64,000 bases of DNA from Halopseudomonas pelagia (lineage in GTDB: Bacteria; Pseudomonadota; Gammaproteobacteria; Pseudomonadales; Pseudomonadaceae). The stretch's first letter is position 1. Each line of letters starts with the position of its first letter. The DNA lies in the NCBI RefSeq assembly GCF_009497895.1, contig NZ_CP033116.1, positions 2,480,001 through 2,544,000 of the forward strand. The letters are read 5' to 3'. Below are positions 48,072-64,000 of the stretch, piece by piece. The position numbers and the translations under genes were made by a program. The notes beneath the pieces are model-generated. The model was not told the DNA's origin. It ran no database searches and saw nothing but the letters and a program-made list of their open reading frames with translations.

Positions 48072-48149
<78 letters not shown>

Positions 48150-48165
48150 ATATTATCAATGACTT

Positions 48166-56588: not shown

Positions 56589-57530
56589 TTAATTGTTTGG
56601 AGGAGCTGGTTGGTCTTGAAGTCCCTGCGCACGCTGCATGATCAGCTCGTGCAGGGTGGGTTGTTCGCGGCGGGCTTTGCGGCTGATGTAGCCTATTTGG
56701 CTACCGGCTTGAGGCTGGGTAGTAGTAGGTGCTTCGGGATAAAACTCCTCCAGAACCTGCTCAGCTTCATCATCGCTGTCCTCAAAGGCCCCGTTGAGTA
56801 ACCCTTTCTGAGCGGCTGCATCCAGCGCTGCCTGTTCAAATCCTGCATCCCGACGGGCGAGATCTAGCGCATTAGCTTGGTTCAGCGCCTCTTCCATGGA
56901 CAAGCCGGTGCGTAGAATCAGATCCACGTAGTAAATCGGTGTGCCGTGGCTCTGCCGGGTGGATTTACCACGAAGACGAATCTCCAGGGGCAGGCAAGCC
57001 AACCGATTGCCAGACAGCGCCTGCAGGTAACTCAGCCTGGCGGTGAGGGTGCGGATGCTGTTGAAGCCTGTTGTTCTAAATACGAAGCTACCCAACAGAT
57101 CATCATCTCCAATAGCTACATTAAGACGGCCATACGGCTTGCAGGCGCCACCCTTGGCCATGGGACAGCCATCCGGGCTGGGGCAGGGCAGTGACTGCAG
57201 TCCTTCACTGGTGGAGCGCTTACAGGTATCACCGTTGCCCACGCACAGCGGACGTCCGCTGGTGCGATCAAACAGGCAATACTCAGCCCGAAAATTCAGT
57301 CCTGGGTCGTTAAACAACAGGCGTACCGGGATCGTGCGAATCTTACCGCCTTGATCCTTGCGCAGTTGCTCATCAACCGGATGCAGCACCCAGCCATCCT
57401 TGGTTTGTATTTGGGAAGTGATGGTGAACTGGTCATCCTTCTCCGGTAGACGCATGCCGTTCTTCTCGACCACCTTGCCGATGGATATCCGTCCGAGCAC
57501 GGGCGGTGTAATAGCCAGACCTTTGATCAT
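56589..57530 (-). CDS. Gp3-like 'hydrolase or metal-binding' island protein
   Basis: A 313-residue protein of the group often called hydrolase or metal-binding protein and linked with the phage Gp3-like (recombination directionality factor-like) family. It starts PPVLGRISIGKVVEKNGMRL, then a cysteine-rich part (GRPLCVGNGDTCKRSTSEGL, QSLPCPSPDGCPMAKGGACK), which is likely metal-binding, and a C-terminal acidic helix. The gene is 26 bases upstream of radC and comes after a terminator-like hairpin behind yqaJ. If it is a directionality factor, its recombinase partner is not in view; it may instead belong to the recombination module beside it. Confidence 0.7.
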   Translation of the reverse strand: MIKGLAITPPVLGRISIGKVVEKNGMRLPEKDDQFTITSQIQTKDGWVLHPVDEQLRKDQGGKIRTIPVRLLFNDPGLNFRAEYCLFDRTSGRPLCVGNGDTCKRSTSEGLQSLPCPSPDGCPMAKGGACKPYGRLNVAIGDDDLLGSFVFRTTGFNSIRTLTARLSYLQALSGNRLACLPLEIRLRGKSTRQSHGTPIYYVDLILRTGLSMEEALNQANALDLARRDAGFEQAALDAAAQKGLLNGAFEDSDDEAEQVLEEFYPEAPTTTQPQAGSQIGYISRKARREQPTLHELIMQRAQGLQDQPAPPNN

Positions 57531-60427: not shown

Positions 60428-61555
60428 TTAGCTTCGCGGGACCTCGACCAGTTCGTTACCGTCGATGCGGTAATTGAGGGTCATTTCTTGCGTCGGACAG
60501 CACATCGGATCTTCAATGCTGTGAATGAGGGTTTTGACCGAGATGATGCCATTCTCGACGGCCAGCTCAGCAGATTGAGAGTCGACAATGGTGTTTGCAA
60601 CGAGCTGATACTCGGAACCAGTGTGCAGGAATACCGCAAGGTATCGGGTCGCGATCTCACGCTCCATAGTGTACAGAACGGCAGCATCCTCCGTTGTCTT
60701 CCCGACGATGCGTGCCTTGAGGACGCTGCGGGCATCAACATATTCGTTTGCACCTGTCTCGTCTTTTACTGACTCGACGAGCGATGAAATAGCATTATCG
60801 AGCGTGCCCCCGGCCGGAACTTCATGGATTTTTCCGGCGGGTTCCGGGTCCGGTGTGTCTTCGACAGGGTCGGTGGGCATATCCATCATTTCCATCACGT
60901 CACCAAGAGTCATAATCTTCTTTGCTGAAGCATGAGTATTGGTGTCTGGGATACTCGCGCGGGGGTTGGCCATCAGGTGATCGTGATAGAGTATGTTGTA
61001 GCTGGCGACTATCTTGCGAACCGCGCGTTCACTCTTTGTTTCGTCCTTATGGAAGAGACCGTAGAAGAGTTCTTCTGTGTCATTGAGCTGAGTAAGGTCG
61101 GCGATAAAATCTTCTGTTTCGACAGTGAGCTGCATCATCCCGCGGACGAGCGCGAAGGACTTCAAGTACCCTTTATCCTGAACGGCAAAGACCATTGTCA
61201 GGGTGTGCCCCCTTCCGATTTCTGCGCTAGCCTTGACCAACCTCAGGCCGCTGCTTGCGCGAACTTTAGCAGCGTAATCTGCAATTACATAGTCGATGTC
61301 GATATCTGAAAGGAGGTCGTTGTCTTCGAGTGCGTCTTCGAACTCTAGATCTATATCAAATCCCATTTCAGAAAACATTGATCTGATTCGATCATAGGGA
61401 ACACCGGCCTCAGCGGGGCCCGATATTGGGGTGTAGTGCCAAAGCGTCAGCTCCTCAACGGCGTCACGAGCGTTGTTGGAGAAGAGATAGTAGGGGGTAT
61501 ACAGACCTAGCGAAATGCAGGTTAAAACTAGCCAGATTTTGAATGCTGTGCGCAT
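60428..61555 (-). CDS. uncharacterised membrane-anchored/exported island protein
   Basis: A 375-residue protein with one N-terminal hydrophobic helix (residues about 5-22, IWLVLTCISLGLYTPYY) and an acidic, mostly extracytoplasmic part. It has a cluster of acidic residues (EMGFDIDLEFEDALEDNDLL, then SDIDIDYVIADY) and a Pro/Asp-rich stretch (DPVEDTPDPEPAGK). Two adjacent Cys near the end (DPMCCPTQ). No known domain recognised. AAGGAC precedes the ATG at 61555; the upstream codon at 61627 lacks the sense of a signal. It may be part of the envelope cargo with the DUF1523 protein upstream. Confidence 0.65.
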   Translation of the reverse strand: MRTAFKIWLVLTCISLGLYTPYYLFSNNARDAVEELTLWHYTPISGPAEAGVPYDRIRSMFSEMGFDIDLEFEDALEDNDLLSDIDIDYVIADYAAKVRASSGLRLVKASAEIGRGHTLTMVFAVQDKGYLKSFALVRGMMQLTVETEDFIADLTQLNDTEELFYGLFHKDETKSERAVRKIVASYNILYHDHLMANPRASIPDTNTHASAKKIMTLGDVMEMMDMPTDPVEDTPDPEPAGKIHEVPAGGTLDNAISSLVESVKDETGANEYVDARSVLKARIVGKTTEDAAVLYTMEREIATRYLAVFLHTGSEYQLVANTIVDSQSAELAVENGIISVKTLIHSIEDPMCCPTQEMTLNYRIDGNELVEVPRS

Positions 61556-61799
61556 ATAACGTCCTTGCTGGGTGTGAGCGTCCGAATAGCCGAAAAGGAG
61601 CTGCTCCAAATTATCCGTAGCGGTCAATTGATACCGACCAATATTTTAAGTTTTTCTCCGGCTGTCACGGCGGTTAGCACACGTTAATAATTGCCGGGCT
61701 TGCGCGCGATACAGCTGATCAGGCACTCAATTGCCTACTATAAAGCTCTAACTCCTCATCAATATGGCTTAGAGTATCTCCATTCACATCAAACCAGCT

Positions 61800-62339: not shown

Positions 62340-62618
62340 CAAAGTTACTCCTAAAGGATGGGGGGATGATAACGGCCCCGAAGCCATTACCAAGGTAGAA
62401 TACTAAAGACTTGAGCAAAAGTTAGCGGAAATCGTTCTGGTTCATAGCTGTCGGCGATAAAAAAACGGTAATATCAATGGATCTCACAGGCTGCACCAGC
62501 TAAGGCCGGTTATTCCAAAAAGGCCGGCCTGATCTCCATCAGGCAAGTCACTCAATTGGCCGGTAATGATTGGCATGCGGGGGCGTTAGCATCATCAACA
62601 TTTGCCAAGAAGAAAATC

Positions 62619-63623
62619 ATGCTTTTATTCCTTGAGGGACAGTCGAGTCAGCGTGACGTGATCGCTGGCGCGAGAGAAGCTCTACCGGCATCAATTCGCA
62701 TCTTTGCCTCTCATAGACAAGACCGTCCCGAGATTACGGGTCTTGCTGATGTTGCTTGGACGGAGCCAGCTGACGATTTGGAGCGAGTTGGCTGGGCGAT
62801 CAACAAAGCTGTAAGCAACGGCATTAAAGTGGTGTTGGCTGGTAAATCCGGACAGCTTTATGAGGCCCACCGGGGTTGCTTCGAGGAGCATGGCATCAAC
62901 CTAGTGACGGGGTGCATATCCTTAGAATGGCTTCAGATGATTGAAGACAAGGGGCGATTTACTGCCGAAGCGATATGTAGTGGTTTGGCTTGTATTCCAG
63001 GAATCCCCGTTACAACATCCGAGGATTTGTTGGTTGCCTACCGTGATCTGGCAGAGCAAGGCCCGGTATGCGTCAAACCGGTGGTTGGAATTTATGGGCA
63101 GGGTTTCTGGAGGCTCAGTGAAAACACTGATCCATTTCGCTGTTTCGCAAACACAGATGTTCGTGAAGCAAACTTGGAGGTATTCGCTGATCTCTATGCA
63201 CGGGCGAAAAATCCAAAACCCCTTCTGGTAATGCCTTACATGGCTGGCAGCGAGTGCTCGATTGATATGGTCTGCGAGGGAGGGAGCGTGATTGCCTATG
63301 TTGGCCGGCGCAAGCAAGGCATCTATCAAACATTCGAGCGTGAAGGAGGCGCCGTAGAGCTTGCGATTCGTGCTGCTACGCATTTCAAATGCGATGGTCT
63401 CGTGAACGTTCAAACCCGCGATGACGGCAATGGTGTTCCGCACCTACTTGAAATTAATCCGCGTTATTCCGGTGGCATCGGTTATACCCGCGAAGTGGGG
63501 GTTAATTTGCCTGGAATCTTCGCCACCCGCAGGCTCAAGCTCCCGGAGCCAACCTCAAGATGGAAAATGGGCGTTCGCGTCAAAGCTATTTCTGTAGCGA
63601 TCCCCATGGACGGCAAATGTTAG
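62619..63623 (+). CDS. ATP-grasp enzyme next to a TerD-like gene
   Basis: A 334-residue ATP-grasp ligase. VCVKPVVGIYGQGFW holds the ATP-binding lysine region, GSECSIDMVCEGG the central loop, and LLEINPRYSGGIGYTREVGV the Glu/Asn metal ligands. It should join a carboxylate and an amine or thiol with ATP; the substrate is unknown. ATG 62619 with AAGAAG upstream is preferred to TTG 62556. A TerD-like gene follows after 51 bases on the same strand. ATP-grasp genes are known partners in Ter stress-response loci, so the pair is likely a functional unit. Confidence 0.85.
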   Translation: MLLFLEGQSSQRDVIAGAREALPASIRIFASHRQDRPEITGLADVAWTEPADDLERVGWAINKAVSNGIKVVLAGKSGQLYEAHRGCFEEHGINLVTGCISLEWLQMIEDKGRFTAEAICSGLACIPGIPVTTSEDLLVAYRDLAEQGPVCVKPVVGIYGQGFWRLSENTDPFRCFANTDVREANLEVFADLYARAKNPKPLLVMPYMAGSECSIDMVCEGGSVIAYVGRRKQGIYQTFEREGGAVELAIRAATHFKCDGLVNVQTRDDGNGVPHLLEINPRYSGGIGYTREVGVNLPGIFATRRLKLPEPTSRWKMGVRVKAISVAIPMDGKC

Positions 63624-63674
63624 TCTAAAGCTTGCCGAACTGTTATCGTGATTTAAAATGTGGAGATGACACGG

Positions 63675-64000
63675 ATGATTTTTCTCTCGCCTGGGGCAAA
63701 CGTCAGTATCGGTGGTAGTAACTGCAGTTGGAGTATGGAGAGTGACCGCGGAGCGCTTTTAGGCGATTACGCTGGTCTTGCGCTTTTGCTTCTTGACGGC
63801 AAGCGAAACCCATGCGGTAATCCAGTACTGTTTCAGTCACCACAACCATGGATGGAATGGAGCGGTGGCCCTGAAAAGGCTTTCTGTAGAATTTCTCTCG
63901 ATAGTCTCCCTCAGGGCTGTGAGAAAGTACTGATTGTAGCTTACGTTTACGCGGCGGCCGGGCCAGTTAGCGAGCTTGGCTCGGTGCACTTGATCGTTAA
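63675..64000 (+). CDS. TerD-domain-like protein, N-terminal part (runs off window)
   Basis: The frame is open from the ATG at 63675 (after TGGAGATGACACGG) to the right edge, 108 codons. MIFLSPGANVSIGGSNCSWS, then GDYAGLALLLLDGKRNPCGN, a PVLFQSPQPWMEWSG segment and ISLDSLPQGCEKVLIVAYVY follow the TerD pattern: a beta-sandwich with D-type calcium loops and the ISLDSLP-type turn. Some usual Asp residues of calcium-binding TerD proteins (DLDAS-type) are replaced here (GDYAGLAL), so calcium binding is doubtful. The C-terminal half is missing. Confidence 0.75.
   Translation, partial: MIFLSPGANVSIGGSNCSWSMESDRGALLGDYAGLALLLLDGKRNPCGNPVLFQSPQPWMEWSGGPEKAFCRISLDSLPQGCEKVLIVAYVYAAAGPVSELGSVHLIV

Follow-up and report, generated by a model that had tools for sequence, protein, structure and literature searches.

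A putative Pseudomonas-type Ter (tellurite/stress) operon, with a TerD-like/HtrA-like protease fusion, in a tRNA-Pro element of Halopseudomonas pelagia

Introduction

The terZABCDE genes of pRBL16 from Pseudomonas citronellolis SJTE-3 confer high tellurite resistance, and terCD form the core in Escherichia coli (PMC8779313). Tellurite genes are counted in the core of the pRBL16 megaplasmid family (PMC7070040), and pTTS12 gives an eightfold higher tellurite tolerance in P. putida KT2440 (PMC9537497). A Klebsiella locus is described as a putative biosynthetic cluster together with terZABCDEF, and a nucleoside-like metabolite is predicted for it with reference to a 2012 study (PMC8115787). A protein whose TerD module is followed by a trypsin-like protease (TerD-Tryp, YP_273108.1 of P. 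syringae) was counted once, and not functionally characterised, in a 2008 survey (PMC2605481). The present study concerns a Ter operon that starts at the right end of a 64,000-nucleotide stretch of the Halopseudomonas pelagia genome (the window; bases 2480001-2544000 of a single contig of 4.55 Mb) and whose second gene is a fusion of this kind. Ter operons may serve ends beyond tellurite resistance, and the point of note in this otherwise known operon is the role of the fusion's protease.

The operon and its first two genes

A Ter operon of 12 genes, all on the + strand, was found to start at the right end of the window and to continue past it, as read from open reading frames (ORFs) and Pfam matches in the window and in its right flank (L002, genome 2542000-2561999; window frame = L002 position + 61999). 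The gene order is ATP-grasp, TerD-like/protease fusion, PRTase_2+TRSP, HAD-type, StiP+PELOTA, C-C lyase, TerZ, TerA, TerB, TerC, TerD and TerE (Table 1); downstream in the operon, neighbouring genes overlap by no more than 26 bases or lie no more than 174 bases apart. A first-pass annotation of the window had foreseen a Ter-type system continuing rightward, and TerZ, A, B, C, D and E, PRTase_2, StiP/PELOTA, the HAD-type protein and the C-C lyase were indeed located past the window. ATPgrasp_Ter, PRTase_2/TRSP, StiP/PELOTA and C-C_Bond_Lyase stand in one biosynthetic block, TerZ to TerE are adjacent, and all five PF02342 matches of the whole genome lie within the operon. Judged by its sequence, the locus is very probably the whole of a Pseudomonas-type operon for tellurite and stress (Ter), with the fusion described below, in a tRNA-Pro integrative element.

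The second gene starts at ATG 63675, as in its relatives, and exactly 51 bases therefore separate it from the ATP-grasp gene, the same spacing as had been noted from the window. It encodes a product of 378 residues and extends 811 bases beyond the window. The in-window piece of 109 residues gave no Pfam match, while the whole gene matched PF02342 TerD above its curated cut-off (2.1e-9, 37.6 bits, cut-off 25.3). The earlier assignment as TerD-like was thus correct as to family, but this is not a plain TerD: the C-terminal half is an HtrA-like serine protease that retains the His-Asp-Ser triad, with S303 as catalytic serine, in an HtrA-type fold (degP_htrA_DO model, 86.3 bits). This half had been missed because the window edge cuts the gene. 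The protease fold and triad are common to the HtrA/Deg proteases DegS, DegP and HtrA1. In contrast to these, the fusion gave no Pfam match to a PDZ domain at E 0.1, no signal peptide or membrane segment was evident on a crude hydropathy scale (top 19-residue value 1.45 near residue 331, none N-terminal), and its other half is a TerA-like domain.

This N-terminal domain has its closest counterpart in the N-terminal half of TerA from the same operon. The calcium-binding residues of Klebsiella pneumoniae TerD are 29, 40-42, 78-79, 82, 84 and 88-89 (PMC8779313). In a low-identity alignment with 16 of the 106 fusion relatives found (see below), the main calcium motifs (DLD and the GDN loop) were absent from the query and from 16/16 relatives; TerD positions 40, 42, 78, 79, 82 and 89 were lost in all of them and positions 29, 84 and 88 partly kept. 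A deviation at the usual acidic positions, remarked on before, accordingly holds for the main motifs.

The fusion architecture is not new, having been on record since 2008 as uncharacterised. In that survey the TerD module likewise precedes the protease, but YP_273108.1 is given as a domain architecture, with no operon context in its description (PMC2605481). A literature search for the fusion beyond the 2008 survey gave nothing further among the matches listed; the 2012 Ter comparative study and subscription papers lay outside this search.

The ATP-grasp gene lies in an ORF at 62556-63623 (+), with its ATG at 62619. Both the start and the family had been read correctly from the window: the protein matched PF15632 ("ATP-grasp in the biosynthetic pathway with Ter operon") with E 6.9e-39 and 133.1 bits (cut-off 29.1). 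Its AlphaFold model (predicted local distance difference test, pLDDT, 92.6) had 2pn1 as best PDB match (E 6.9e-17, template modelling (TM) score 0.71 by query length), and a sequence search for solved structures of the ATP-grasp and StiP proteins returned none at E 0.01. Residues K153, E278, N280 and R282, which we take to be catalytic, were invariant across 46 sequences.

A terminator-like hairpin lies 3' of terE, and the scan that located it returned 22 terminator-like sites against a shuffle mean of 12.4. A clear promoter was also sought in the operon; promoter-like sites were not enriched (7 against a shuffle mean of 8.8), and a search of the operon for riboswitches and other RNAs gave just two weak matches at about half their gathering scores.

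Conservation of the fusion and of its neighbours

A database search with the TerD-like half as query, limited to candidates of 0.55-1.75 times the query length, returned 106 proteins, every one listed with TerD and Trypsin_2; a lone TerD-like domain of the fusion type could not appear among them owing to the length limit. The named sources were mostly Pseudomonas, and also Burkholderia, Stutzerimonas, Microbulbifer, Oceanobacter and Enterobacillus. Species genomes were scanned with peptide patterns of the query, which reach close relatives only. The scan gave 29 loci. Of these, 26 (L025-L050, one from Stutzerimonas and the others from Pseudomonas) hold the fusion in full length, and three, excluded from the gene-order count, the protease part only. 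ATP-grasp lay directly upstream of the fusion in 25/25 full-length loci with room (L027 starts at a contig end), and the PRTase directly downstream in 25/25 (L038 ends there). All 12 genes stood in identical order in 22 of the 23 loci with enough contig, a count that omits L027, L038 and L040; the remaining one, L047, has no TerB match. The 26 loci are not independent, since two strains are represented twice and L036 hardly differs from L037. The two genes are thus regular neighbours in Pseudomonas and Stutzerimonas, contrary to the possibility, raised beforehand, that homologues might never be adjacent.

At E 1e-40 or better the fusion was matched in 6/369 genomes of the class, the window's own included. 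ATP-grasp adjoins the fusion in G131, but it is divergent and 28% identical, and the fusion gene is interrupted. G362 holds the fusion twice, a PRTase match following each copy, and its ATP-grasp gene lies on a different contig, 3.9 kb before terZ. The match in G274 is confined to the protease half. Together with G125 and G256, weighed below, the arrangements in G131 and G362 indicate that the ATP-grasp/fusion pair belongs to the Pseudomonas-type operon and not to every such fusion. A class-wide PF15632 search is too loose for counting Ter loci, as 327/369 genomes match at E 0.001; matches below 1e-35 were confined to G000, G131 and G362. Within a plasmid collection, the fusion matched 730 records, 127 of them over at least 80% of its length, with Pseudomonas accounting for 127/730, and ATP-grasp matched 2498 records, 130 from Pseudomonas.

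Comparison with known ter loci

The operon type is already known, widespread and ordinary, and the window's operon is a further member. It had been thought possibly an atypical, unstudied branch, a view that found no support: the arrangement recurs in Pseudomonas chromosomes and a P. aeruginosa plasmid, and terZABCDE of pRBL16 has been tested for tellurite resistance (PMC8779313). The P. aeruginosa plasmid p243931-IMP (NZ_MN208062) carries ATP-grasp, TerD-protease, PRTase, HAD-type, StiP, lyase and terZABCDE genes in one direction, with a DUF4236 gene nearby, as here; the fusion is 60%, ATP-grasp 61% and TerE 88% identical. By comparison, the window's operon is chromosomal, sits in the tRNA-Pro element and lacks the plasmid's extra HAD gene between lyase and terZ. 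This gene (729 bp in plasmid L054) is missing from L002:6797-6970, and the lyase-terZ gap is likewise short in L025, L026, L034 and L048. pRBL16 (NZ_CP015879) carries a fusion 60.6% identical and is likened here by that match, not by gene order.

From the 2498 plasmid records with ATP-grasp, three enterobacterial loci were compared (IncFIB/IncHI1B Klebsiella, IncHI2A Salmonella and IncC Enterobacter). They have the same enzymes and terZABCDE, 37-72% identical, and a DUF4236 gene in 3/3. In these loci, however, terZABCDE and the biosynthetic block are divergent, PRTase comes immediately after ATP-grasp, and genes annotated as TerW or TerY-C are present in 3/3, which were not seen in the window's operon.

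Directly after terE of the window's operon comes a protein with an LprI-like lysozyme-inhibitor domain (L002:11803-12939; PF07007, 1.4e-5), and beyond it a DUF4236 gene (L002:13050-14258, window frame 75049-76257), a family also found near ter genes in four plasmids examined. The C-terminal part of the DUF4236 protein gave a weak match to the PADLOC model of a type IV methyl-directed restriction enzyme (1.1e-6).

The words "trypsin", "peptidase" and "ATP-grasp" are absent from the main text of PMC8779313, and the available parts of PMC9933665 and PMC11003894 mention neither trypsin nor ATP-grasp. Full-text literature searches joining TerD with ATP-grasp, tellurite and phosphoribosyltransferase, or with anti-phage and tellurium resistance, found no paper; for StiP, PELOTA and TerD in pairs, the matches listed were all unrelated.

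Possible role of the fusion

A protease fused to a Ter-family domain, with its triad kept, within the operon across Pseudomonas offers a simple handle on Ter function. Following the literature, TerC with TerD/TerE would confer tolerance of tellurite and stress, while a nucleoside-like metabolite would be the product of the enzyme block (ATP-grasp, PRTase_2, HAD-type, StiP and C-C lyase). The fusion may supply a cytoplasmic protease that its TerA-like domain would dock on the Ter protein assembly, where it could cleave components of Ter or clients damaged by stress. Docking of such a cytoplasmic protease on Ter proteins through a calcium-blind TerA-type domain is the role tentatively preferred here, at somewhat short of even confidence. 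Several points weigh against it. The fusion model leaves it uncertain how the two halves lie relative to each other (predicted TM score, pTM, 0.58). In the fold search the protease half took up the match lists, and a missing match there is thus no evidence about the fold of the TerD-like half. The protease fusion is absent from the three enterobacterial plasmid loci. This absence would not be general in the enterobacterial order, in that Enterobacillus tribolii, presumably of an enterobacterial genus, has a fusion protein (P0099). TerD-like/protease genes occur in G125 and G256 (in G256 with TerD and Trypsin_2 confirmed by Pfam) where tblastn found no Ter gene over stretches of 10.7 and 14 kb, respectively, the G125 contig ending just after the gene; docking on Ter proteins therefore cannot be the sole role of these genes. 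Finally, terCD of pRBL16 suffice in E. coli without the upstream genes (PMC8779313), so tellurite resistance in that host does not depend on the fusion protease.

The fusion might instead be a maturation protease, trimming a Ter enzyme or TerA-family protein once at assembly and not in response to stress. Its place between biosynthetic genes and the domain in common with TerA, a likely partner, would suit this, but the three enterobacterial loci keep the same neighbouring proteins with no such protease, and we consider the idea rather unlikely, if a serious candidate. Lower still do we place an anti-phage or abortive defence effector, in which the TerA-like domain would sense an infection-linked change and the protease cleave host or phage proteins. 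The operon is carried on mobile elements, a 1995 paper credits the R478 ter cluster, by its title, with phage inhibition, and the protease domain resembles the PADLOC defence proteins RT-Protease_XI (61.7 bits, 1.5e-17) and Avs1b (20.5 bits, 1.5e-5). However, the HtrA-type model outscores the better of these matches, R478 is a different plasmid from those compared here, whose three enterobacterial loci have no fusion, and PADLOC on 19 operon and element proteins recognised neither a Ter system nor any strong defence gene, only the protease-domain similarity and one weak nuclease-type match. A broader version of the docked protease, with the calcium-blind TerA-type domain as a switch, the HtrA-like protease controlled by the Ter assembly or metabolite, and Ter acting in regulated proteolysis, possibly for defence, as well as in resistance, is a long shot. 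Chance neighbourhood of ATP-grasp and a degenerate TerD gene, for which the lack of a Pfam match to the in-window fragment alone might have spoken, is refuted by the pair being kept in 25/25 testable loci; the fusion family is moreover coherent, and the probability left to this explanation is negligible.

The TerD-like/protease genes of G125 (L099:9378-10616, +) and G256 (L100:3122-4342, -) follow genes that are bioF-, bioC- and bioD-like by their translations. In G256, the bioF- and bioC-like genes are separated by two others, and a gene that reads in translation as a PilT-like ATPase runs convergently towards the TerD-like/protease gene.

The integrative element

The attachment repeats lie 33,891 bp apart and delimit a 33.9-kb element that carries the Ter operon as cargo, together with recombination directionality factor-like (Table 1), YqaJ, DUF932 and RadC-like genes; with a G+C content of 0.529 it is lower in G+C than its flanks (0.574 and 0.581). 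The operon had been placed at the edge of a tRNA island. A tRNA-bounded island is confirmed by the 46-bp repeat and the integrase, but the ATP-grasp/fusion pair lies 14.5 kb inside it and not at its edge.

Table 1. Positions of the operon genes and element features (plain numbers, window frame; L002, right flank)
Feature	Position	Strand	Basis or remark
tRNA-Pro(GGG), element integration site	48073-48149	+	ARAGORN
Left 46-bp attachment repeat	48105-48150	+	3' part of tRNA-Pro(GGG)
Recombination directionality factor-like (RDF-like) protein	56589-57530	-	PF18897, E 1.2e-43
ATP-grasp ligase, gene 1	62619-63623	+	PF15632 ATPgrasp_Ter
TerD-like (TerA-N type)/HtrA-like protease fusion, gene 2	L002:1676-2812 = 63675-64811 (in window 63675-64000)	+	ORF, Pfam, start from relatives
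PRTase_2+TRSP	L002:2886-4019	+	PF15609+PF12500, over cut-off
HAD-type protein	L002:4003-4767	+	no Pfam match; named from plasmid homologue's annotation and reading of translation
StiP+PELOTA	L002:4742-5854	+	PF11202+PF15608, over cut-off
C-C lyase (C-C_Bond_Lyase)	L002:5855-6796	+	PF15617, over cut-off
TerZ	L002:6971-7579	+	PF02342
TerA	L002:7579-8784	+	PF02342
TerB	L002:8833-9282	+	PF05099
TerC	L002:9272-10342	+	PF03741
TerD	L002:10362-10937	+	own-genome PF02342 search
TerE	L002:10965-11543	+	PF02342
Terminator-like hairpin with T-run, 3' of terE	L002:11566-11581		terminator scan
Tyrosine integrase, 178 bases from right repeat	L002:18439-19818	-	PF00589, E 2.4e-19
Right repeat	81996-82041		exact 46-bp copy

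The direct repeat at the tRNA 3' end and the integrase beside it are accompanied by an empty site in a relative. In G023, which is 97% identical over the left flank, a single repeat copy is followed 144 bases later by right-flank sequence, corresponding to that about 5.1 kb beyond the right repeat in the window's genome; about 6 kb of other sequence come shortly after. The single copy and the right-flank synteny indicate that the element is absent there, with the right side differing further. G012 and G001 have one repeat copy in the stretch read and no blastn match to the right flank in 7-8 kb, so neither tests the absence of the element. In G013 the operon (77% DNA identity, 11,060 columns) adjoins the same tRNA-Pro; the contig ends just after terE, and the remainder of any element is therefore not visible. 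In PADLOC and PHROGs searches, other genes of the element proved to be of recombination type, and none gave a strong defence match.

A protein of 399 residues (window 60428-61627, -) has no Pfam family over cut-off and is 31% identical over part of its length to a hypothetical protein after terE in plasmid L054. The approximately 5.1 kb between the right repeat and the sequence shared with G023 (L003:43-5190) hold genes that are sigma-factor-, FecR-, TonB-receptor- and esterase-like by their translations. Further pieces of tRNA-Pro(GGG), 47-49 bp long, lie about 41-127 kb off on the same contig in G012, G018, G034 and G002, and these second tRNA pieces suggest that in this genus tRNA-Pro(GGG) is an insertion hotspot of integrative elements.
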